Under the pieces are notes generated by a model. The model searched no databases, was not told the DNA's origin, and was given only the letters and a program-made list of their open reading frames with translations. DNA of 58,047 nucleotides from the NCBI GenBank assembly GCA_948470255.1, contig CAOKOS010000010.1:1-58047 (forward strand). The letters run 5' to 3'. Positions within the stretch are counted from its first letter, which is position 1. Each line of letters opens with the position of its first letter. The DNA comes from an uncultured Lachnotalea sp. (lineage in GTDB: Bacteria > Bacillota > Clostridia > Lachnospirales > Lachnospiraceae). The position numbers were made by a program, and so were the translations under genes. This document shows, in pieces, positions 23,396 through 34,550 of this stretch.

Positions 23396-23965
23396 ATGTG
23401 GAGTGCAAAGATATTTTCAACGGATTTTTACCATTTTGTAAACTGGTTTCTGCTGTACAGTATGTTGGGGTGGCTTTTGGAATCCATTTACATGTCTTTT
23501 TGCAATAAAAAGCTGACCAACCGCGGTTTTGTCCGCGGCCCCATCTGCCCCATTTACGGGGTGGGCTTTTTGGGAGCCTATTTTCTGTTCCAGCCCATCG
23601 CCCATAACTGGCCGTTATTGTACGTGTTGGGGTGCATATCGGCTACGGTGTTGGAATTTCTGGTGGCAAAAGTGATGATACGGATCTTTGGGGCCGTGTG
23701 GTGGGATTATAAAGATAAGCCTTTCAATTACCAGGGGATCCTCTGTCTGGAAAGTACCTTGGCCTGGGGGCTTTATGCCATCTGCCTGTTTGCCTTTGTC
23801 CACAAATGGATTTCCCGGCTGTCGGACAGCTACAGCATGACTGTGGGAAAAATATTTGTGATCGCAGGAGCTGTCTATTATATTTCAGACTTTATCTACT
23901 GTGTCATGAAAGCGAAACGGAACGAGGGACTGGAAAAAGACGGGATTCTGGTGAAATCGAAATAA
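23396..23965 (+). CDS. CmpB-like putative ABC transporter permease (COG4905 type)
   Basis: 189 residues with about five membrane helices. The segments FVNWFLLYSMLGWLLESIY, NRGFVRGPICPIYGVGF, LEFLVAKVM and WWDYKDKPFNYQGILCLESTLAWGL are the hallmark of the putative ABC transporter permease family PF06541/COG4905, found widely in Clostridia. The family's substrate is unknown. It lies 40 bases after gatB with GGGGAACG before ATG 23396, and may be read through from gatCAB. The very long palindromic element starts 10 bases after its stop. Confidence 0.88.
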   Translation: MWSAKIFSTDFYHFVNWFLLYSMLGWLLESIYMSFCNKKLTNRGFVRGPICPIYGVGFLGAYFLFQPIAHNWPLLYVLGCISATVLEFLVAKVMIRIFGAVWWDYKDKPFNYQGILCLESTLAWGLYAICLFAFVHKWISRLSDSYSMTVGKIFVIAGAVYYISDFIYCVMKAKRNEGLEKDGILVKSK

Positions 23966-23975
23966 TATCAGAGAC

Positions 23976-24254
23976 AAAAGCCCCGGCCTTCTGGGCTACC
24001 CAAGGATACAAAAAGGTTCGCTCTCTGTGCTCGTGCCGTAAAAATTGAAGTTCTAAATGTTCTGATGGGGTGAAACAAACTCCCCGCAACCGGCTTACGA
24101 TCCGCCGTCCATGGCGTCGTAAGCCTTTTTCGGACGTCCTGTCCGAAAATTGCTGGATATTTCACAGAACATTAAGAACTTCTAAATTTTTACCGCAATG
24201 CACAGGAAGAGAAACCTTTGTATCCTTGGGCAGCCGGAAGGCCGGGGCTTTTAC
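23976..24254. repeat. long palindromic structured intergenic element, copy A
   Basis: A ~280-base imperfect hairpin between convergent genes. The outer arms (AAAGCCCCGGCCTT / AAGGCCGGGGCTTT and CCCAAGGATACAAAAAGGTT / AACCTTTGTATCCTTGGG) enclose a core with an inner stem (GAAGTTCT / AGAACTTC) and two apical hairpins (GGCTTACGA...TCGTAAGCC and TTTTCGGAC...GTCCGAAAA). The core recurs inverted at 32959-33279 with pairing-preserving substitutions. No ORF is supported. It could be a bidirectional terminator, a structured RNA or a non-autonomous mobile element. Confidence 0.85.
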
Positions 24255-24260
24255 GAGGTA

Positions 24261-24470
24261 TCTGGATTTATATATGCCCGGCCCTCTGCCTGCTTTCGCG
24301 CTCGTCCGATAGGCAGATTTTGCAGGTTTTGTGAGACTAGCGGCGCCAGTCCCGTTGACCGGCTTTTATGGAAGCGGCGGCTGGCGGTAAAAGGCGGCGA
24401 AACAAAACCCAAAAATCAACGTGGACGAAAGTGAAGGTAGGCAGAGGGCCGGGCAGACATAAATATCAGA
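24261..24470. repeat. second long hairpin beside copy A
   Basis: The arm at 24261-24308 (GCCCGGCCCTCTGCCT with flanks) is complementary to 24421-24470 (AGGCAGAGGGCCGGGC with flanks). Inner stems GATTTTGCAGGTTTTGT / ACAAAACCCAAAAATC add to it. It overlaps the last bases of the convergent CorC-like gene. Its core is not the same as copy A, so it is a different element with similar architecture. Confidence 0.7.
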
Positions 24471-25749
24471 TTTCGTTTTTTTCTTCCGTTTCTTCTTCCG
24501 GTTCGGGCAGATAGAGTTTCACCCATTCAATCCTGTTTTTGTCCATGGATTCCACCACAAAGCGGATATTCTGGCTGGTAATACTTTCACTGGCAACGGG
24601 AAGGTGATCCAATTCACCGATGATAAGGCCGCCCACAGAATCATAGTTTTCTGAGGAAAGGGAAAGCTCCAGGGCATCATTGATGTCATCCAGTTTCATG
24701 GAACCTTCCACCCGGTATTCCAGGTCGCTGATCTTCTGAAGGCTCTTCAATTCATCTGCGTCATATTCATCCCGGATTTCGCCCACGATTTCTTCCAACA
24801 GATCTTCCAGGGTTACAAGCCCGGCAGTGGCGCCGTACTCATCCAGTACGATGGCGAGACTTACGGAATTCTGGCGCATATCCATGAAAAGCTCCGAGGT
24901 CTTTTTAAATTCATAAGTAAAGTAGGCTTCCCGCAGATAATTTTGAAGCCGAAAAGGAATTTCATCTTTATAAAACAACAAATCCTTCATATTAATAATA
25001 CCGACTACATTGTCAGTGGTATCGCGGTAGACTGGAATACGGGTAAACATGCTTTCCCGGTAAATTTCCAGAAGTTCATCGTAGGAAGCGTCTTCACGGG
25101 CGAATACCATATCAATACGGGGAACCATGATGTCCTTGGCTTGTGCATCCCCAAAATCCACCACATTGTTGATCATTTTCCGCTCTTCGCTCTCGATGAC
25201 GCCCTCTTCATGGCTGACATCCACAATGGTACGAAGTTCCCGCTCTGTAATGGTGTCGGTCTTTGCGTCAGGATCCACTCTCATGAGACGCAGGAACCCT
25301 CTGGCCAGCAGATTGACAATAAAAATAACCGGCGTCAGAATCTTCATCAAGGCAGAAATAATGCCGGCAATCCTGAGGGCCACAGATTCAGCTTTTAAAG
25401 TGGCCATGGTTTTCGGGGAGATTTCACCAAAAATCAAAATCAGCAGGGTAATAACACCGGTGGCAATCCCTACATAAGCGCTGCCGAACTTCTTGATGAC
25501 CAGGGAGGTAATCAGGGAGGAAGCGCTTAAATTTACCACATTATTTCCGATTAAAATGGCGCTTAACATTTTGCCTTTGTTGCTGATCACCCGCTCCAGG
25601 GCGACTGCCCGTTTATTCCCCTCTTCGATGAGGGTACGGATGCGTACCTGGCTGATGGTTAAAAGCGCTGTTTCCGCAGAAGAAAAAAATGCCGACAAAA
25701 ACAATAAAGTAATGAGGCTGACAATCTGTATGACGTCACTTGGGTCCAA
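24466..25749 (-). CDS. CorC/HlyC (CNNM/UPF0053) family membrane protein
   Basis: 427 residues. The N-terminal DUF21/CNNM domain has about four membrane helices (residues 8-140; FFSSAETALLTISQ is a typical motif). A CBS pair lies around 205-325 (RIDMVFAREDASYDELLEIY, IPVYRDTTDNVVGIINMKDLL, VSLAIVLDEYGATAGLVTLEDLLEEIVGEI). A C-terminal CorC_HlyC domain carries the GGLIIGELDHLP signature. Relatives act in Mg or other divalent ion efflux and tolerance; the hemolysin name is historical. It is transcribed alone, convergent with the CmpB-like gene. Confidence 0.94.
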   Translation of the reverse strand: MDPSDVIQIVSLITLLFLSAFFSSAETALLTISQVRIRTLIEEGNKRAVALERVISNKGKMLSAILIGNNVVNLSASSLITSLVIKKFGSAYVGIATGVITLLILIFGEISPKTMATLKAESVALRIAGIISALMKILTPVIFIVNLLARGFLRLMRVDPDAKTDTITERELRTIVDVSHEEGVIESEERKMINNVVDFGDAQAKDIMVPRIDMVFAREDASYDELLEIYRESMFTRIPVYRDTTDNVVGIINMKDLLFYKDEIPFRLQNYLREAYFTYEFKKTSELFMDMRQNSVSLAIVLDEYGATAGLVTLEDLLEEIVGEIRDEYDADELKSLQKISDLEYRVEGSMKLDDINDALELSLSSENYDSVGGLIIGELDHLPVASESITSQNIRFVVESMDKNRIEWVKLYLPEPEEETEEKNEI

Positions 25750-25879
25750 AAAATATCACTCTCCTAAAAAATTATTATATGGAATTGATTGTACAATATT
25801 GCAGGGTGACTGTCAAGAAGCAGGGGGATCTTGAACTTTTATTGATGTTTTGAGTCCCGGCAAAAAGCTCCCCGGGAAA

Positions 25880-25908
25880 TTGAATTTGAATAAAAGCTAT
25901 GTTATGAT
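25880..25908 (+). promoter_or_regulatory. promoter for the HAD phosphatase
   Basis: TTGAAT (25880-25885), a 17-base spacer and TATGAT (25903-25908), 31 bases before the start codon at 25940. Confidence 0.6.
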
Positions 25909-25939
25909 GGTAACAGAAAGACAAAAGGGGGTGGATAGT

Positions 25940-26758
25940 ATGGCTGTGAAACTGATTGCTCTCGATTTAGACGGAACCATATTGAGGGGCCATAAAGAGG
26001 TGACAAAGCGGACCCGGGAAGCCATATGCGCGGCCCTTGAATCCGGTATTTTTGTGGTTCCGGCTACGGGCCGTTCTTATATGGATATCCCGGAAGTAGT
26101 AAGGGGGATTCCGGGCCTCTCTTTCTTCCTGACTTCCAATGGAGCCAATATCCTGGACAGCAGGGGCCTAAACAGCATTTATACAGATTTGATACCGTGG
26201 AAACAGGCCGTGGAGGTGCTTCACATCATAGAAGAATACGGGACACAGCCCTCTGTCCATATGAATGGGAGCAGCATCAATTTAAAGACGGCAGATCCGC
26301 GGATCATAGCCAGATACGGAAATACCGATTATTTTACAAGGGGTAGTGTGGAAAACCTGGCAGATTATGTGGCAGAACAAAAAAGGGATGTGGAAAAGAT
26401 TTTTGCCGTGTTGTTTGAGCCACAAAGGAAGGTAGAGATGACAGCGCGGATTACCTCAGAGTTTCCCATGGCAGTATCGGCTTCCGGCCCGGATAATGTG
26501 GAGTTAAACAGCCGGACAGCTTCCAAGGGCCACGGCCTTTTTGTACTGTGCGGGAAGCTTGGCATCAGGGCGGAAGAAACAGCGGTGGTTGGTGACAGTA
26601 TCAATGATATTTCCATGTTTGAATTTGCAGGCTGCAGCGTTGCCATGGGCAATGGGGAGGGCTGCCTGAAGGATATGGCCCGCTATAAAACAGATACTTG
26701 CTGGGAAGACGGGGCGGCAAAAGCCATTGAGAAAATCGTAAGGGGAATCTGGGACTGA
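25940..26758 (+). CDS. Cof-type HAD phosphatase
   Basis: 272 residues from ATG 25940 behind AAAAGGGGGTGG; a longer in-frame start at 25850 lacks a site and covers the promoter. The HAD motifs are LIALDLDGTI (nucleophile Asp), VPATGRSY (motif II), a Lys in NSRTASKGHGLF, and VGDSINDISMF (motif IV). The cap is the C2B alpha/beta type of Cof/YidA hydrolases, which dephosphorylate sugar phosphates and related metabolites. The precise substrate cannot be predicted. Confidence 0.93.
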   Translation: MAVKLIALDLDGTILRGHKEVTKRTREAICAALESGIFVVPATGRSYMDIPEVVRGIPGLSFFLTSNGANILDSRGLNSIYTDLIPWKQAVEVLHIIEEYGTQPSVHMNGSSINLKTADPRIIARYGNTDYFTRGSVENLADYVAEQKRDVEKIFAVLFEPQRKVEMTARITSEFPMAVSASGPDNVELNSRTASKGHGLFVLCGKLGIRAEETAVVGDSINDISMFEFAGCSVAMGNGEGCLKDMARYKTDTCWEDGAAKAIEKIVRGIWD

Positions 26759-26856
26759 TAAATAAAAAAATCCTGCTGTGTAAGATTCATGGCAACGGGA
26801 TGGAATGAAAAATGGCAGGTTCATGGTACGGGCAAAAGAGACGGAGGAGATATCCC

Positions 26857-27561
26857 ATGGCGGCGTTTGTGGAATTAAGGGAAGTGAAGAAAACATACGG
26901 GACAGGAGAAGTTGTCATTAAGGCAGTGGATAATATGAGCTTTTCCATAGAGAAGGGAGAGTTTGTGGTTATTGTCGGCCCCAGCGGGGCGGGAAAGACG
27001 ACGGTTCTCAATATTTTGGGTGGCATGGATCGTGTTTCGGGCGGGCAGGTGCTGGTGGACGGTACAGATATATCAAAATTTGACAACCGTCGGATGACAA
27101 AATACCGCAGGGAAGATATTGGTTTCGTTTTCCAGTTTTATAATCTGGTACAGAACCTGACAGCCCTTGAGAATGTGGAGCTGGCCCTTCAGATTTGTAA
27201 AGACCATCTGGATGCGGAAGAAATCCTTAAAGACGTGGGGCTGGGAGACAGGATAGGCAATTTTCCGTCTCAGCTTTCCGGCGGTGAACAGCAGAGGGTG
27301 TCCATTGCCAGGGCCTTGGCTAAAAATCCAAAGCTGCTATTGTGTGATGAGCCGACGGGAGCCCTTGACTACCAGACGGGAAAAGCCATCCTTAAGCTTT
27401 TGCAGGATACATGCAGAAAAAAAGGCATGACAGTGGTGGTCATTACCCACAATTCGGCCCTTGCGCCCATGGCGGACAGGGTATTTAAAATTAAAAACGG
27501 GAAGGTGTCTTCCATGAAAGTCAATGAGAAGCCGGTTCCTGTGGAAGAAATTGAGTGGTAG
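26857..27561 (+). CDS. ABC transporter ATP-binding protein (MacB/LolD type)
   Basis: 234 residues from ATG 26857 behind ACGGAGGAGAT; an upstream in-frame start lacks a site. Walker [11 protein letters not shown]-loop FVFQFYNL, signature LSGGEQQR, Walker [13 protein letters not shown] and the H-loop ITHN are intact. It belongs to the LolD/MacB/FtsE-like class that pairs with FtsX-fold permeases and works by mechanotransmission rather than transport through a pore. The permease starts 34 bases later. Confidence 0.96.
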
Positions 27562-27594
27562 AATTTAAGATTAATAGGCAGGGGATGAGGCAGA

Positions 27595-30500
27595 ATGAAA
27601 AAAGCGCAGCGCAAAGATTTTTTTGTGGAAATAAAGAAAAGCTTAAACCGTTATCTCTCGATCTTGTTTATTGTGGCTTTGGGGGTGGCGTTTTTTTCAG
27701 GTATTCGGGCGGCGGAACCGGATATGCTGCTTTCGGTGGATGCCTTGGCGGATGAGGCTGATTTTATGGATATCCGTGTGATTTCCACCATGGGTCTTAC
27801 GGATGCAGACTTGGATAGTATCCGGGAGATAGAGGGAATCACTGCAGCGGAAGGGGAGTATTCCGTTGATGTGCTTTGCTCCCTGGAGGAAAACGAGTTG
27901 GTGCTCCATGTGGTTTCTTTGACAGAAGAAGTCAATAAACTCACTGTGAAGCAGGGGAAGCTTCCGGAAAATCCGGGGGAATGCCTGATTGACGAGCAGC
28001 TCCTTATGACGGAAGATTATGCCCTGGGAGACACTATTATGGTATCGTCCGGTACGGAAGACCCTCTTTCCGATACCCTGAAAAGGGATGCTTATACCAT
28101 CGTGGGGATTGGAACCAGCCCCTATTACCTGAATTTTAATAAGGGGACGGCCAATATTGGAAATGGCGATATCAAAGGCTTTGTGGTAATACCGGCAGAG
28201 GACTTTGCCCTGGAGGCATATACTCAGATTTATGCAGTGTCTGATGGCTTAAAAGGATTTGTCACCGCCGGTGAGGAATATAAAGAAGGAGTGGAAAAGC
28301 TTCAGAACCGTGTGGAAGCCATTGCAAAAGGGCGTTGTGAAATCCGGCTGGCTGATATACAGTCTGAAGCCTGGGCAGAGCTTTCTGAAGCCAGAGAGGA
28401 GCTTGACCAAAAGGAACTGGAGGCAGAGGAGGAGCTTCGGGACGCGTGGCAGAAGATTTCCGACGGGGAGGCAGAGCTTTCCGACGGACGCCGGGAGATC
28501 CGGGAAAACGAAGAGAAGCTTGCCGACGCAAAACAGAAGATTTCCGACGGAGAATGGGAGCTTGCAGAGGGAAAACGGGAATTGTCTGAGGGAGAGCAGG
28601 AATTCCTGGAGGGGAAAGAGAGGCTTTCTGACAGTGAGAAAGCGCTTGCCGAAGCAAAAGAACAATTTTCTGAAAAACAGAAAGAGCTTTCGGCGGCGGA
28701 AGAGGCCCTGGCAGAGGCCAGAAGAGGGCATGAAGCAGGAAAGGCAGAGGCTGAAAACGGCAGAGCTGCCCTGGAGGCGGCAAAAGAGCAGCTTTCCCTG
28801 GCGGGAGAAGAACTTTCCCGGCAGAAAGAAGAGCTAGAAAATGGAAAAGCGCAGGCAGAGGCAGCAAAAGAAACTCTGGATATGCAAGACGCTTCTCTGG
28901 CGCAGCTTGCAGACTCTCTGATTGCAGCCGGCCTGAACCCGGAAGATAATCCCCAGTATGTCCAGGGGATGGCGGCCCTTGCGGCGGCCAGGGGGGAGCT
29001 GGAAAAAAGACTGGAAGAGATCTCCGGGGGAGAAGAACTTTGGAAAGCCGGACAGGCAGAATATGAACAGGCTTGTATAGAGCTTTCAGAAAAAGAAAAT
29101 GGGCTTTTGCAGGCAGAAGAAACCTTAGAGGCGGCAGAGGCGGAACTTTTGCGGGGGGAGGCTGTCCTTTTGAGCGGGAGAGAGGGGCTTTCGGAGTTTG
29201 AAAGGGGACTTGCCGCGGGGGAAGACGCCCTCCGTACAGGCCAGGCAGAACTTTCGGCAGCAGAGGCAGAACTTGCCAAAGCCAGGAGGAAAATTTCTGA
29301 CGGGGAAGCAGAGCTTGTAAGCGGCAGACGAGAAGTGGCTGACGGAGAGGCGGCCCTTGCGGCGGCAAAAGAAGAGCTGGCTGATGGAGAAAGAGAACTT
29401 TCTGATGCGAAAGAGGCATATGAGGAAGCCAGGGAGGAGGCAGATACCGCCATCGCCGAAGCAAAGGAAGAGCTTGAGGAGGCCAGGGAAGAGGTGGATG
29501 GGCTGGAAGAACCGGAGTGGTATGTCCTGGGGCGGGATTCTGTCCAGTCTTATGTGGAGTTCGACAATGATACCGACAGGATCAGGGCCATTGGCAGGGT
29601 GTTCCCGGTGATATTTTTTCTGGTGGCGGCCCTCGTGAGCCTGACTACCATGACCAGAATGGTAGAAGAGAAGCGGACGGAGATCGGAACGATGAAAGCT
29701 TTGGGCTATGGAACCTTATCTATTGCCTCCAAATATGTTTTTTACGCCCTTTCCGCCACGCTGGCCGGAAGTGTGCTGGGATTCCTTATTGGGGAAAAGG
29801 TGCTTCCCTGGGTGATTATCACTGCTTATAAGATCCTGTATGAAAACTTAAATATTGTCAAGATTCCATATAATTGGGGACATGCCCTGGCAGCTACGGC
29901 CATCGCCCTTTTTTGTACTGTGGGAGCCACTCTTGCCGCTTGCTATAAGGAAACCCTTGCCCAGCCGTCCCAGCTTATGCGCCCGGCGGCGCCGTTAAAG
30001 GGCAAGAAAATTTTACTTGAGAAAATCCGGCCTTTGTGGAGGCGTTTAAATTTCAGCCAAAAATCCACGCTTCGGAATCTGTTCCGTTATAAAAAACGTC
30101 TTTTAATGACTGTGTTTGGAATCGGGGCCTGCATGGCGCTTCTGATTGTGGGATTCGGCCTGAGGGATTCCATTTATGCCGTGTCCGACGCGCAGTACGG
30201 GGTACTGTGGAATTACGACGTCACGGTAGGCATTGAAAAGGAAAGCAGCGGGGAAGAACGCGCGGAACTCTGCGAGGCTCTGGAGAAAGATGAAGATGTG
30301 GAAGGATATCTGACAGTTTGTACAGAAACCATGGATGGCCAGGCGGGAAACATCACCAAGGAGGTTAATGTGGTGGTGCCGGAGGATATGAACTGCTTCC
30401 CGGAGTTCTTTTTGCTGCGGGATCGGAAAACGAAAGAGGAGTATACTCTGGATGACCGGGGAGCTGTCATCAATGAAAAACTGGCAAAAACTCTGGGAAT

Positions 30501-31191
30501 CAAAGAAGGGGACAGTTTGGTTTTGAAAGAAAGCGATACAAAAAGCGTTTCCGTGAAGGTGTCTCATATTACGGAAAATTATGTATATCATTACGTGTAT
30601 CTGTCCCCTGTTTATTACCGGGAAATTTTTGGTAGGGAGCCAGAATATAATACGGAATATGTGAGACTCAGAGAAAATGGGGAAGAAAAGGAGCGGGAGC
30701 TTGCCGGACAGCTTTTGAAATATGATGCAGCGGCCGGAGTTGCGCTGGTTTCCGATATGAACCAGACCATCCTGGACATGCTTGGGAGCCTGGATACGGT
30801 TGTATGGGTGCTGATTATTTCGGCAGGGCTTTTGGCATTTGTGGTACTTTACAATCTGAATAACATTAATATCACGGAGCGGCGGCGGGAGCTGGCCACC
30901 ATCCGGCTTTTGGGTTTTTACGATATGGAACTGGCCATGTATGTTTACCGGGAAAATATTCTCTTAACAGGAATCGGCATTGTGGCGGGAGTCTTCATTG
31001 GAAATATCCTTCACCAGTTTGTTATTGAGACTGCGGAGGTGGATCTCATCATGTTTGGCCGGGTGGTACATCCGGTGAGCTATTTGTGGGGGGCAGGGCT
31101 GACAGCGCTTTTTGCAGTGCTGGTTAATGTGGCCATGTTCTATAAGCTGAGGCAGATTGACATGGTAGAATCTTTGAAAAGCGTAGAATAA
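27595..31191 (+). CDS. FtsX-like ABC permease with a giant coiled-coil domain
   Basis: 1198 residues. After a first membrane helix (~residues 18-40) comes an extracellular part with an MacB-like fold, then a ~400-residue uninterrupted Ala/Glu/Lys-rich coiled coil (~245-650) made of repeats such as ISDGEWELAEGKRELSEG. Membrane segments follow at ~665-690, ~720-760 and ~785-810, then a second FtsX unit with helices near 835, 1065, 1120 and 1170. Two FtsX cores plus an extracytoplasmic hairpin is the architecture of several Firmicute permeases of unknown cargo. The repeat also creates two long antisense ORFs, which are artefacts. Confidence 0.9.
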   Translation: MKKAQRKDFFVEIKKSLNRYLSILFIVALGVAFFSGIRAAEPDMLLSVDALADEADFMDIRVISTMGLTDADLDSIREIEGITAAEGEYSVDVLCSLEENELVLHVVSLTEEVNKLTVKQGKLPENPGECLIDEQLLMTEDYALGDTIMVSSGTEDPLSDTLKRDAYTIVGIGTSPYYLNFNKGTANIGNGDIKGFVVIPAEDFALEAYTQIYAVSDGLKGFVTAGEEYKEGVEKLQNRVEAIAKGRCEIRLADIQSEAWAELSEAREELDQKELEAEEELRDAWQKISDGEAELSDGRREIRENEEKLADAKQKISDGEWELAEGKRELSEGEQEFLEGKERLSDSEKALAEAKEQFSEKQKELSAAEEALAEARRGHEAGKAEAENGRAALEAAKEQLSLAGEELSRQKEELENGKAQAEAAKETLDMQDASLAQLADSLIAAGLNPEDNPQYVQGMAALAAARGELEKRLEEISGGEELWKAGQAEYEQACIELSEKENGLLQAEETLEAAEAELLRGEAVLLSGREGLSEFERGLAAGEDALRTGQAELSAAEAELAKARRKISDGEAELVSGRREVADGEAALAAAKEELADGERELSDAKEAYEEAREEADTAIAEAKEELEEAREEVDGLEEPEWYVLGRDSVQSYVEFDNDTDRIRAIGRVFPVIFFLVAALVSLTTMTRMVEEKRTEIGTMKALGYGTLSIASKYVFYALSATLAGSVLGFLIGEKVLPWVIITAYKILYENLNIVKIPYNWGHALAATAIALFCTVGATLAACYKETLAQPSQLMRPAAPLKGKKILLEKIRPLWRRLNFSQKSTLRNLFRYKKRLLMTVFGIGACMALLIVGFGLRDSIYAVSDAQYGVLWNYDVTVGIEKESSGEERAELCEALEKDEDVEGYLTVCTETMDGQAGNITKEVNVVVPEDMNCFPEFFLLRDRKTKEEYTLDDRGAVINEKLAKTLGIKEGDSLVLKESDTKSVSVKVSHITENYVYHYVYLSPVYYREIFGREPEYNTEYVRLRENGEEKERELAGQLLKYDAAAGVALVSDMNQTILDMLGSLDTVVWVLIISAGLLAFVVLYNLNNINITERRRELATIRLLGFYDMELAMYVYRENILLTGIGIVAGVFIGNILHQFVIETAEVDLIMFGRVVHPVSYLWGAGLTALFAVLVNVAMFYKLRQIDMVESLKSVE

Positions 31192-31300
31192 CCAGGCGGC
31201 AGTTTTACATAAATTTTACAGAAGAAGAGATTTTTCCTGATAGAAACTATGCGTGGCGGAAATGCTATAAGTGGAAATCGTGTGACAAGAGGAGAAATCA

Positions 31301-32956
31301 ATGACACTGAATGATGTAAAACTGCTGTTTGAATTTATCGGCGGCCTGGGAATGTTTCTGTATGGGATGAACATTATGGCGGACGGCCTTCAGAAGGCAG
31401 CTGGGGGCCGTATGAAACGGATGTTGGGCTATATGACGGACAGCCGTATCCTGGGGATTCTTTTGGGAGCGGTGATTACGGCAATCATACAGAGCAGCTC
31501 CGCCACTACAGTGATGGTGGTTGGCTTTGTCAATGCGGGGATTTTATCTTTGTCCCAGGCAGTGGGCGTGATCATGGGCGCCAATATCGGGACAACGGTG
31601 ACAGCCTGGATTGTCTCCATGAGTGAATGGGGAGAGGCCATGAAGCCAGAGTTTTTTGCCCCTGTATTGATTGGGATTGGGGCTTTTTTCCTGTTGTTTG
31701 CAAAAAAGGAAAAGAAACAGGAGGCTGGAAGCATTTTGGTGGGCTTTGGCCTTTTGTTCGTGGGATTAAGTTTTATGTCCGGGGCGGTTAAGCCGTATCG
31801 GGATGCCCCTGTGTTTGCGGAAGCTTTTTCCATTCTGGGGAAAAATCCCATCTTTGGGATTCTGGCCGGGATAGTGGTCACAGCGGTGATCCAAAGTTCT
31901 TCGGCATCGGTGGGGATTTTACAGACACTTGCCATGAACGGCGTTGTCACCTGGAACTGCGCGGTTTACATTACCCTGGGCCAAAATATCGGTACTTGTG
32001 TGACAGCGCTTCTGGCGGGAGCAGGCGCCCACCGGACAGCCAGGAGGGCGGCAGCCATCCATCTTTTATTCAATATGATCGGGGCGGTATTTGCCGGTAC
32101 AGTGATGTTCTTTTTGTTCCAGGTGAATCGGGGATGGGCGGCGTTGCCTGTTTCCAGTACGCAGATTTCTATTTTTCATACAGTATTTAATGTAAGTAAT
32201 ACCATCCTTTTATTTCCGTTTGCAGGGAAACTGGTATCACTTTCAGAAAAAATTGTCCGGGACAAAAAGGTGAAGGCGGAAGAGACAAAAGAACAGGAAA
32301 TCTTGTCTCATCTGGATGACCGTATCCTGGAGAATCCTTCCTTTGCCATTGAAACGGCTAAGCGGGAGGTGGTCCGTATGGGGATGCTGGCTCTTGACAC
32401 TGTAAAACTGGGGATTCAGGCTGTGATTGATGGCAGCGGGGAAGCGGCGGAGAAGATATTGGAACAGGAAAAGACCATCAATTTTATGGAGAATTCTCTG
32501 ACTGGGTACTTGGTGAAGGTCAGTAACCTTTCTCTGATGGAGAGACAGTCGGAGCAGGTGAAAAATCTGCTCTATACGGTGAGTGACTTGGAGCGGATCG
32601 GAGATCATGCGGAAAATATTGCAGAGCTGGCGGAGAGTAAAATCCAGAGGGGGATTCGGTTTTCTCCCATGGGGCAGGAAGATTTGGAGTTGATTTATTC
32701 CTATGCTGTCGGCGCGGTGGAACATGCGGTTTTAGCCAGAAAGCATGAAGACACGGAGAATATCCGGGAAGTGATCCGGTTTGAAGATCTGGTGGACAGT
32801 ACGGAAGAGGAACTGAGGGATAAGCACGTCGCCAGGCTGGCAAGATATGAGTGCCTTCCCGAGAGCGGAGTGATATTTTTGGATATCATTGGGAATCTGG
32901 AACGGATTTCAGACCATGCTTACAATATTGCGGGTTATGTAAAAGATGAACTGTAG
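31301..32956 (+). CDS. Na+/phosphate cotransporter (NptA/PNaS family) with PhoU-like domain
   Basis: 551 residues. The inverted repeat units of the Na/Pi symporter are clear: GLGMFLYGMNIMADGLQ, AIIQSSSATTVMVVGFVNAG and AVIQSSSASVGILQTLAMNG each carry the QSSSA motif of this family. After eight or so membrane helices the C-terminal ~200 residues (from about 345) form a PhoU-like helical domain (LERIGDHAENIAELAES, LERISDHAYNIAGYV). It probably imports phosphate. It is a single-gene unit convergent with the MacAB-like operon across the long hairpin element. Confidence 0.95.
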   Translation: MTLNDVKLLFEFIGGLGMFLYGMNIMADGLQKAAGGRMKRMLGYMTDSRILGILLGAVITAIIQSSSATTVMVVGFVNAGILSLSQAVGVIMGANIGTTVTAWIVSMSEWGEAMKPEFFAPVLIGIGAFFLLFAKKEKKQEAGSILVGFGLLFVGLSFMSGAVKPYRDAPVFAEAFSILGKNPIFGILAGIVVTAVIQSSSASVGILQTLAMNGVVTWNCAVYITLGQNIGTCVTALLAGAGAHRTARRAAAIHLLFNMIGAVFAGTVMFFLFQVNRGWAALPVSSTQISIFHTVFNVSNTILLFPFAGKLVSLSEKIVRDKKVKAEETKEQEILSHLDDRILENPSFAIETAKREVVRMGMLALDTVKLGIQAVIDGSGEAAEKILEQEKTINFMENSLTGYLVKVSNLSLMERQSEQVKNLLYTVSDLERIGDHAENIAELAESKIQRGIRFSPMGQEDLELIYSYAVGAVEHAVLARKHEDTENIREVIRFEDLVDSTEEELRDKHVARLARYECLPESGVIFLDIIGNLERISDHAYNIAGYVKDEL

Positions 32957-32958
32957 GA

Positions 32959-33279
32959 TTCCTGACGGTGTGGAAAAAAGTATACTCCCCCGGCCCGGGG
33001 CGGCTGCTAAATTTAAGAAGGTTTCGCGCACTGCGCATTGGAGGGGATATTAGAAATTCTTAATGCTCTGTATAACGTTCCAGCAATTTCCGGACAGGAC
33101 GTCCGGAAAAGGCTTATGCCGCCATGGACGGCGGGTCATAAGCCGGTTGCGGGGAGTTTCTGAACCAGAATCAGAACATTTAGAATTTCAATATCCGCGA
33201 CACCAGCGCAGGAAGTGAACCTTCTTAAATTTAGCAGCCGTTTCCGGGCCGGGGGAGTAGTTTTGCCACGGCGTAGGAA
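32959..33279. repeat. long palindromic structured intergenic element, copy B (inverted)
   Basis: The same core as copy A in the opposite orientation, between convergent genes. Inner pairings are GAAATTCT / AGAATTTC, TTTCCGGAC / GTCCGGAAA and GGCTTATG / CATAAGCC. Outer stems CTCCCCCGGCCCGG / CCGGGCCGGGGGAG and GCTGCTAAATTTAAGAAGGTT / AACCTTCTTAAATTTAGCAGC have no similarity to copy A's outer stems yet pair just as well. See the finding for the covariation. Confidence 0.85.
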
Positions 33280-33293
33280 GCCGGGAAGACTTT

Positions 33294-34550
33294 TTATTCA
33301 TGTCTAAGTGCGTCGATGGGATTTAAATTCGCCGCTTTCACCGACGGGATAATCCCGAAAATGATTCCGATGAGAGTGGAAAACACGACGGCAATGACGA
33401 TGGCTGGAATACTGATGGCCACCGGGGCCTGGGACAGGCTGGAGATCACATATGCTAACCCAATGCCTCCTCCGATTCCCAGGATGCCGCCCATGCCGGT
33501 CAGCACGGCGGCTTCCGTCAGGAACTGTCCAAGGATACGGGTTTTTCTGGCTCCGAGGGCTTTTTTCAGGCCGATTTCACGAGTACGCTCTGTGACCGAC
33601 ACCAGCATAATATTCATAACACCGATACCGCCCACCAGCAGGGAAATGCTGGCAATCCAGATCAGCTGGCGGTTGGTGGAAGCAGAAAGCTCCTGAAGCT
33701 TGGCTGCCTGTTCCAGCAGATCCTGTCCTTTATAGCGGATTGTCTCATCAGACACTGTCAGATAACTGTTTAAAATATCTGCGGATTTTTCCCCGGCAGC
33801 AGTCATATCGTCTGTGGTGACAGCCTGAACCACCAGGTTCTGCGGTTCGTCGTAACGGTATAGAATAGGCCAGATACTGTCGGGCACACAAACCATGCCG
33901 CTGGAATAGCTGGCGGCATACCGTTCATAATCTTCCAGGGAATTGATAACTGGTTCAAAACCGGCTTTTTGGGCAACCAGCCCGATGACTGTGAAGGGTT
34001 CTCCCTTGATTTCAATGGTCTTTCCGATGGAATCTTCTCCCTGGAACAAGTTGGAGGCGGCGATTTTGTCCAGAAGAGCCACTTTTCTGCTGCCGGTAAA
34101 GTCCTTTTCAGTAAAGCCGCGGCCCATGGTAATTTGGTATCCGTACACGTCCAGGTAATGTTTGTCAATACCCAGGATATTTCCGCCGTTTAAACTTTGA
34201 CTGCCGTTGAATACGGCATCATATTCATTTCTGGTGTAATAGAGGGAAGCGGTGGTTACTTCAGAAAGTGCCTGGACTTCCTCCAGAACCTCGCTGCTTA
34301 TGACGGGAACCCCGTCGGGAGGGCTTTGATAAGCCATTTCAAAAGGCCAATCCCCCTGGTAAAGCTGGATGTTTACTGCATTATTTCCAGAACCCACCAA
34401 ATTTTGTTTGATCTGCTCATTGGTTCCCTTGATGGTGGAGACAATGGCGATAATGGAACCAATACCGATGATAATACCCAACATGGTCAAGATGGAGCGG
34501 AGCTTGTGGGCCCAGATTCCCTGAAAAGACAGTCTTATATTCTCAAGCAT
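33294..34550 (-). CDS. MacB-like ABC permease
   Basis: 418 residues of the FtsX/MacB permease type: helix 1 near residues 18-42 (RSILTMLGIIIGIGSIIAIVS), a ~230-residue extracytoplasmic MacB_PCD domain, then three helices near 285-310, 335-365 and 375-400, with the typical VTERTREIGLKKALGARK motif before them. It is last in a four-gene operon (adaptor, ATPase, adaptor, permease) read leftward. Family members export peptides, antibiotics or lipids with an HlyD-like adaptor; the substrate here is unknown. Confidence 0.94.
   Translation of the reverse strand: MLENIRLSFQGIWAHKLRSILTMLGIIIGIGSIIAIVSTIKGTNEQIKQNLVGSGNNAVNIQLYQGDWPFEMAYQSPPDGVPVISSEVLEEVQALSEVTTASLYYTRNEYDAVFNGSQSLNGGNILGIDKHYLDVYGYQITMGRGFTEKDFTGSRKVALLDKIAASNLFQGEDSIGKTIEIKGEPFTVIGLVAQKAGFEPVINSLEDYERYAASYSSGMVCVPDSIWPILYRYDEPQNLVVQAVTTDDMTAAGEKSADILNSYLTVSDETIRYKGQDLLEQAAKLQELSASTNRQLIWIASISLLVGGIGVMNIMLVSVTERTREIGLKKALGARKTRILGQFLTEAAVLTGMGGILGIGGGIGLAYVISSLSQAPVAISIPAIVIAVVFSTLIGIIFGIIPSVKAANLNPIDALRHE

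Follow-up and report, generated by a model that had tools for sequence, protein, structure and literature searches.

The 58,047-nucleotide (nt) stretch of DNA analyzed here over its whole length (the window), positions 1–58,047 of contig CAOKOS010000010.1 of an uncultured Lachnotalea sp. (assembly GCA_948470255.1; family Lachnospiraceae), contains two long palindromes, copies A and B, which are as good as certain to belong to the catalogued TwoAYGGAY family (Rfam RF01731). With a probability of roughly 0.58, TwoAYGGAY is a small (~250–400 bp), dispersed, non-autonomous mobile palindrome similar to miniature inverted-repeat transposable elements (MITEs), in which the pairing of the arms is kept at the DNA level, and not a fixed RNA gene or a cis-regulatory leader. 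Copies are present or absent at orthologous sites, one of them lies within a terminator hairpin, another is inverted in situ, no strand bias is seen and the arms pair without an RNA-like G·U signature. The family is already known; new here are its dispersal and presence or absence at given sites, the pairing of each copy with its own arm beyond the model, and pairing statistics that do not resemble those of RNA.

Both copies match the RF01731 covariance model from position 1 to 168 of 168 (gathering cut-off 43), and these full-length matches (E values of 4.7e-17 and 1.2e-16) place the palindromes far beyond chance. An earlier note on this DNA had found no named family for them and had regarded a match to one in Rfam as refuting its view; such a match is what was obtained. 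No other Rfam family was found above its cut-off within the window. The loop of the second hairpin is AUGGAC in both copies, while that of the first is a shortened AGGAC, so that the AYGGAY loop is present there in reduced form. Neither copy contains an open reading frame (ORF) of at least 90 amino acids.

23976–24252, minus strand: copy A, entire palindrome; outermost stem AAAAGCCCC...GGGGCTTTT is the bidirectional terminator of the host, with a bare counterpart in genome G007
24033–24197, minus strand: copy A core, TwoAYGGAY RF01731, 100.3 bits
~32985–33256, plus strand: copy B, entire palindrome including outer arms; inverted relative to the flanking genes in G007
33038–33203, plus strand: copy B core, TwoAYGGAY RF01731, 102.2 bits

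Reading of the sequence bears out two long, mutually inverted palindromes at these positions, with the pairing-preserving differences between them that the earlier note had listed. In a repeat search, the arms of copy A appear as 36 nt at 75% and 19 nt at 95% complementarity, and those of copy B as 37 nt at 84%.

Distribution and Presence at Orthologous Sites

The genome that contains the window carries four TwoAYGGAY copies. Among 61 genomes, including this one, eight are carriers with 1 to 20 matches each, and 53 have no match. In the wider family set, 65 of 397 genomes are carriers, a scan in which at most six candidates per genome were scored under strict filters, so that false absences are possible. 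Further copies in related genomes, for which the earlier note had proposed to search, thus exist.

Orthologous places were located with pieces of flanking sequence as queries and then read, giving 21 comparisons for 19 copies. In 17 of them both flanks are present with no core between them, in two another palindrome occupies the place, and two yielded a single flank. Part of the arms is retained at three or more of the 17 core-less sites (L054, L009, and probably L034), indicating that loss happens as well. The clearest case is copy L026 of G010, absent in G004, where the flanks are 97–98% identical and 398 nt are present or absent. Copy L029 of G007 is absent in G000, and the filled site shows a 5-bp direct repeat, CCATA; no clear target duplication was seen elsewhere. 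Both G007 and G010 are Lachnospiraceae metagenome assemblies.

Copy A is absent in the nearest relative, G007 (flanks 91–94% identical). The gap there is occupied by a terminator hairpin, compact and perfect (AAAAGCCCCCGGCCTTCCGGGGGCTTTT), and the arms of this hairpin equal the outermost stem of copy A. No RF01731 match was found beside the gene orthologous to the copy A neighbor in any of ten genus relatives, and reading of six plus-strand loci (L097, L098, L099, L101, L102, and L105) showed no TwoAYGGAY. The intact bare terminator in G007, together with the lack of a match in these relatives, indicates that the outermost self-complementary stem of copy A is the host's own terminator. For this copy, gain is a simpler history than loss.

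Around copy B, G000 and G007 have their flanking genes in colinear order, but the element between them is flipped: its two sequences align well in the orientation of the element and poorly in that of the genes. Unless it reflects an assembly error, this inversion argues against any function for which orientation toward the genes matters. A second orthologous pair, L010 and L071, has kept its orientation. In L071 (G007 contig C24, ~1734–1894), which is the orthologue of a G000 copy, the core is broken by a ~94-nt palindromic insert (CCGTCGATTGACAAG ... CTTGTCAATCGACGG).

A test for flanking sequence copied in inverted form across the insert was made for 13 copies. Its outcome is taken as a lead only. 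It gave 4–10 pairs at L029, L025, L010, L050, L008, and L039; at L039 there were five such pairs and 34 host–host pairs. The counts were 25 at L037 and 28 at L038, and no pairs were found at L026, L015, and L013. Persisting arms in the relative account for the 46–48 pairs at L054 and L034.

At two loci where G010 has TwoAYGGAY (L032 and L020), G004 carries a different long palindrome (L123 and L124). These two palindromes share the core CTCCATCAAACCRGGTCGG, have no Rfam match at the cut-off, and may represent another family of like architecture.

Arm Pairing and Covariation

The arms extend beyond the Rfam model and pair there over a median of ~50 nt in 123 of 128 copies, comprising 64 of 67 in the first set (3 of 70 copies with less than 100 nt of flank were dropped) and 59 of 61 in a second set, which the author picked in other genomes from the top-ranked among the matches listed. 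In G032 and G018 an arm scores a median of 24 and 29 against its own partner and a median of 3 against the other copies of the same genome; in G014 the arms are largely common among the copies (27 against 19). In some genomes, therefore, as the earlier note had claimed for copies A and B, outer stems are unrelated among copies yet each is self-complementary. For A and B themselves the claim is true only in part, since by eye the core-adjacent portions of their stems have a common GGTT(T)CGC-like stretch. A AAATTGCACAAA-like motif, also spotted by eye, recurs in the outer arms of many copies from several genera; it may mark the ends of the element as a recognition site.

If pairing is kept in RNA, G·U is expected to outnumber A·C on the RNA strand. 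The outer arms contain 228 G·U and 223 A·C mismatches (p 0.85; first set 144:119, second set 84:104), and the ratio is 43:36 for isolated mismatches with four Watson–Crick pairs on each side and 20:17 for the core hairpins. The same procedure applied to the signal recognition particle (SRP) RNA at 30 loci of relatives gave 33:1 within the RNA. The SRP sequences and the TwoAYGGAY cores were selected by covariance models and the outer arms were not; the sequences are related, and the p-values throughout carry no phylogenetic correction.

An alignment of 37 cores, chosen for variety from 131, contains 307 two-sided and 13 one-sided changes, with 20 GU and 27 AC, against 132 two-sided and 86 one-sided changes, 186 GU and 0 AC in 29 of the 30 SRP RNAs. 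Two-sided changes occur at 30 of 33 pairs of these chosen cores, so the strong covariation predicted by the earlier note is confirmed. Its reading of the palindromes as a structured RNA or an element whose fold is under selection stands in that the fold is conserved; the step from covariation to RNA fails, as the outer arms and hairpins show no G·U preference and one-sided changes are few, unlike in SRP RNA. A preference for G·U over A·C combined with one-sided changes, as a structured RNA would display, was not found, apart from a weak G·U excess in the basal stem P1 of the core alone. The covariation is real and abundant, but of the kind expected from DNA palindromes, and the wobble tests support a matching of the arms that probably takes place at the DNA level.

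Gene Context and Orientation

Both copies in the window lie in gaps between convergent genes, as had been noted earlier:

23396–23965, plus strand: copy A neighbor, ABC_trans_CmpB family
24466–25749, minus strand: copy A neighbor, CNNM/CBS/CorC_HlyC membrane protein
31301–32956, plus strand: copy B neighbor, Na/Pi cotransporter with PhoU domains
33294–34550, minus strand: copy B neighbor, MacB/FtsX-type permease

Enrichment at convergent gene ends, which the note had suggested to look for, is not general. Genes were called by a longest-ORF heuristic, and 6 of 70 copies without both neighbors were dropped; of the remaining 64, 20 lie between convergent and 13 between divergent genes, and 14 and 17 between codirectional genes (++ and --, respectively), with no strand preference relative to the genes. 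In G007, convergent gaps hold 10 of 14 copies. A general restriction to convergent gaps is ruled out by the 13 divergent and 31 codirectional cases, and a cis-regulatory leader or riboswitch by the inconsistent gene orientation of the 64 copies together with the flip of copy B in G007. Rfam assigns RF01731 to the type Cis-reg. Carriage by plasmids or phages found no support: BLAST with copy B gave no plasmid or phage match, and one exact pattern gave no viral contig, both searches using the DNA of one copy.

Among the matches listed, all six pairs of copies lying close together (less than ~1.2 kb) are divergent with their 5' ends facing (G018 contigs C47 and C33, G071 C123, G398 C152, G418 C1, and G032 C2), an arrangement that was spotted post hoc. 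Copies A and B are likewise divergent, with 8.8 kb between them.

Mobile Palindrome or Structured RNA

As a mobile palindrome, TwoAYGGAY would enter intergenic DNA, apparently at times hairpins, by means of some enzyme, and its arms would afterwards stay complementary at the DNA level. This could happen in two ways. Extrusion of the palindrome during replication may allow one arm to serve as template for correcting the other, a process that may also flip the centre; alternatively, mobility may act on the single-strand DNA hairpin itself. Recombination or template exchange between the arms would fit the flip of copy B. A literature search on templated correction with covariation found no paper that combined all the terms sought.

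A bolder version, which we put forward as possible but tentative, is that TwoAYGGAY is no RNA family at all. The palindrome would act as folded single-strand DNA or as an extruded hairpin, and copying from arm to arm would make the covariation, flip the centre, and be able to copy adjoining host DNA into the arm on the other side. In that case, further "RNA" families that were defined by covariation and lie within long repeated palindromes may be artefacts of this process, recognizable by equal numbers of G·U and A·C. Covariation is a main criterion for the discovery of structured RNA, and a family rich in two-sided changes that shows no G·U preference suggests that DNA palindromes can satisfy it. 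The comparisons of G·U with A·C and of one-sided with two-sided changes supply a cheap test, and an RNA family published in 2010 becomes directly testable as a mobile DNA hairpin or a CsrA sponge.

Several observations weigh against a mobile palindrome with arms matched as DNA. No transposase was found by a search aimed at Y1_Tnp only, and Y1 transposases are not linked to carriage; no consistent duplication of the target emerged, and insertion polarity is argued for copy A only. Since G007 is a metagenome assembly, the one inversion observed could have arisen in assembly. The basal stem P1 of the core has a modest G·U excess (92:51). The contrast with RNA depends on a single control family, SRP, whose G·U count takes in fixed G·U pairs, and weak extensions beyond the SRP match (6 of 30 loci) had a ratio of 20:11, which is not clearly unlike equality. 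The alignment comparison is uneven, since the TwoAYGGAY set is more diverged (column identity of 60% against 84%) and contains more broken cells (129, with 16 for SRP), which by itself favors two-sided changes. Equal G·U and A·C would likewise result if transcripts of both strands folded. Three further points concern the folded core and its hosts. GGA is conserved in the loops of the 126 cores counted (108 in P2, 114 in P3, 101 in both, and 5 in neither, leaving 25 without GGA in at least one loop); of the 131 cores, four outside 150–175 nt and one without both hairpins had been dropped. The hairpin stems contain 149 G·A and 41 C·T mismatches. Finally, 62 of 65 carriers have csrA, against 148 of 332 non-carriers (p 4e-16), a distribution predicted for an RNA that binds CsrA.

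The excess of G·A over C·T indicates that one strand folds, and in the core the folded form of the strand with the conserved G·A pairs and GGA loops matters. Since G·A pairs are stable both in RNA and in single-strand DNA, the asymmetry does not choose between the two. A true RNA, namely a multi-copy small RNA that sequesters CsrA through two GGA hairpin loops per copy and is the clostridial counterpart of CsrB/RsmZ, is nevertheless an explanation to which these features point, and one published as a hypothesis (PMC4333381); we consider it rather unlikely. It agrees with the presence of GGA in both loops of most cores, the strand-specific G·A pairs, the weak G·U excess in the basal stem, and the distribution of csrA, which is also present in all eight carriers of the first set (40 of 61 genomes overall). 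However, the association of carriage with flagellin is no weaker (64 of 65 carriers and 149 of 332 non-carriers). The two genes occur together in 206 genomes, out of 210 with csrA and 213 with flagellin, and nearly coincide, so that the association is not attributable to CsrA in particular. The four genomes with csrA and no flagellin include no carrier, and the seven with flagellin and no csrA include two. Of the carriers that lack csrA, G201 and G391 have flagellin and fragmented assemblies, while G352, a single contig, has neither gene. Also at odds with a CsrA sponge are the cores in which one or both loops lack GGA, the wobble pattern unlike that of SRP RNA, and promoters, which are not in excess in 23900–33400 (11 found, 9.7 expected). 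A literature search on CsrA, Lachnospiraceae, and small RNA yielded nothing on point, judged by title.

A second alternative is that the element is chiefly a decorated bidirectional terminator that stops transcription from both sides of convergent genes and whose RNA, folding from both strands, would give equal G·U and A·C. Copies A and B do carry GC stems with short flanking T/A runs in their convergent gaps, and most copies of G007 are convergent. Such a terminator is improbable, as 13 of 64 copies are divergent and 31 codirectional, the outer stems of G014 and G032 have no obvious T-runs (by eye), G007 has a terminator without the element at the copy A site, and the loops and G·A pairs are specific to one strand. 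Mobility of another kind would be that of a repetitive extragenic palindromic (REP)-like repeat mobilized by a resident Y1 transposase of the REP-associated tyrosine transposase (RAYT) or IS200 type. The multi-copy extragenic palindrome with a strand-asymmetric hairpin resembles such repeats, but this explanation is very improbable: no Y1_Tnp match was found in G000, G004, or G032, the last of which has 18 element matches and is listed as 100% complete, and Y1_Tnp is not associated with carriage (31 of 65 carriers and 187 of 332 others, p 0.22; sample without G007 and G010). Dependence on a resident Y1/RAYT enzyme was rejected on these grounds.

Comparison with Known Systems

Like prokaryotic MITEs, TwoAYGGAY is short, multi-copy, and free of ORFs, has palindromic inverted-repeat arms, and is polymorphic for insertion at orthologous sites (17 of 21 comparisons). 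It differs from them in arms that diverge between copies yet are complementary within each, in a conserved internal fold, and in that no parent transposon was found by the search aimed at Y1_Tnp only. The REP/RAYT systems comprise extragenic palindromes that are possibly moved as hairpins by TnpA-REP; TwoAYGGAY is likewise an extragenic palindrome, but its core is much longer and more complex, and several carriers have no Y1 transposase match. PMC10969869 is a review of prokaryotic MITEs, and PMC2817692 and PMC8266576 deal with REP/RAYT systems.

With CsrA sponges of the CsrB/RsmZ type, the hypothesis of PMC4333381 for this family, TwoAYGGAY shares the paired GGA hairpin loops and the presence of csrA in most carriers. 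It differs in consisting of dispersed palindromes without strand bias, with at most 20 matches per genome.

The copies agree with RF01731 as published (PMC2864571) in their full-length model match, two hairpins, long basal stem, and clostridial host, and differ in their mobile behavior, outer arms reaching beyond the model, and wobble statistics unlike those of RNA. That 2010 discovery paper describes TwoAYGGAY as probably RNA and probably not cis-regulatory. Sequestration of CsrA was proposed in 2014, with mention of tandem G·A pairs (PMC4333381). A preprint (PMC11661157) describes two conserved loops differing in stability and terms the motif relatively unexplored, and two covarying pairs were added to the family according to the Rfam 15 paper (PMC11701678). 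TwoAYGGAY has no settled role, and a CsrA-sequestering RNA is one published idea.

Other Palindromes in the Window

A different long palindrome at 24266–24464 adjoins copy A, with 42-nt arms that are 83% complementary and 115 nt apart. It is also absent from the matching gap of G007, and its sole Rfam match, to a microRNA family, is far under the cut-off; sub-threshold microRNA matches on nearby palindromes were taken as chance. At 1468–2211 lies a cluster of inverted repeat units (CCTATAAAGTAAAAACCCTCCGG and relatives), in which a unit recurs 448 bases on (1596/2044 and 1572/2020).

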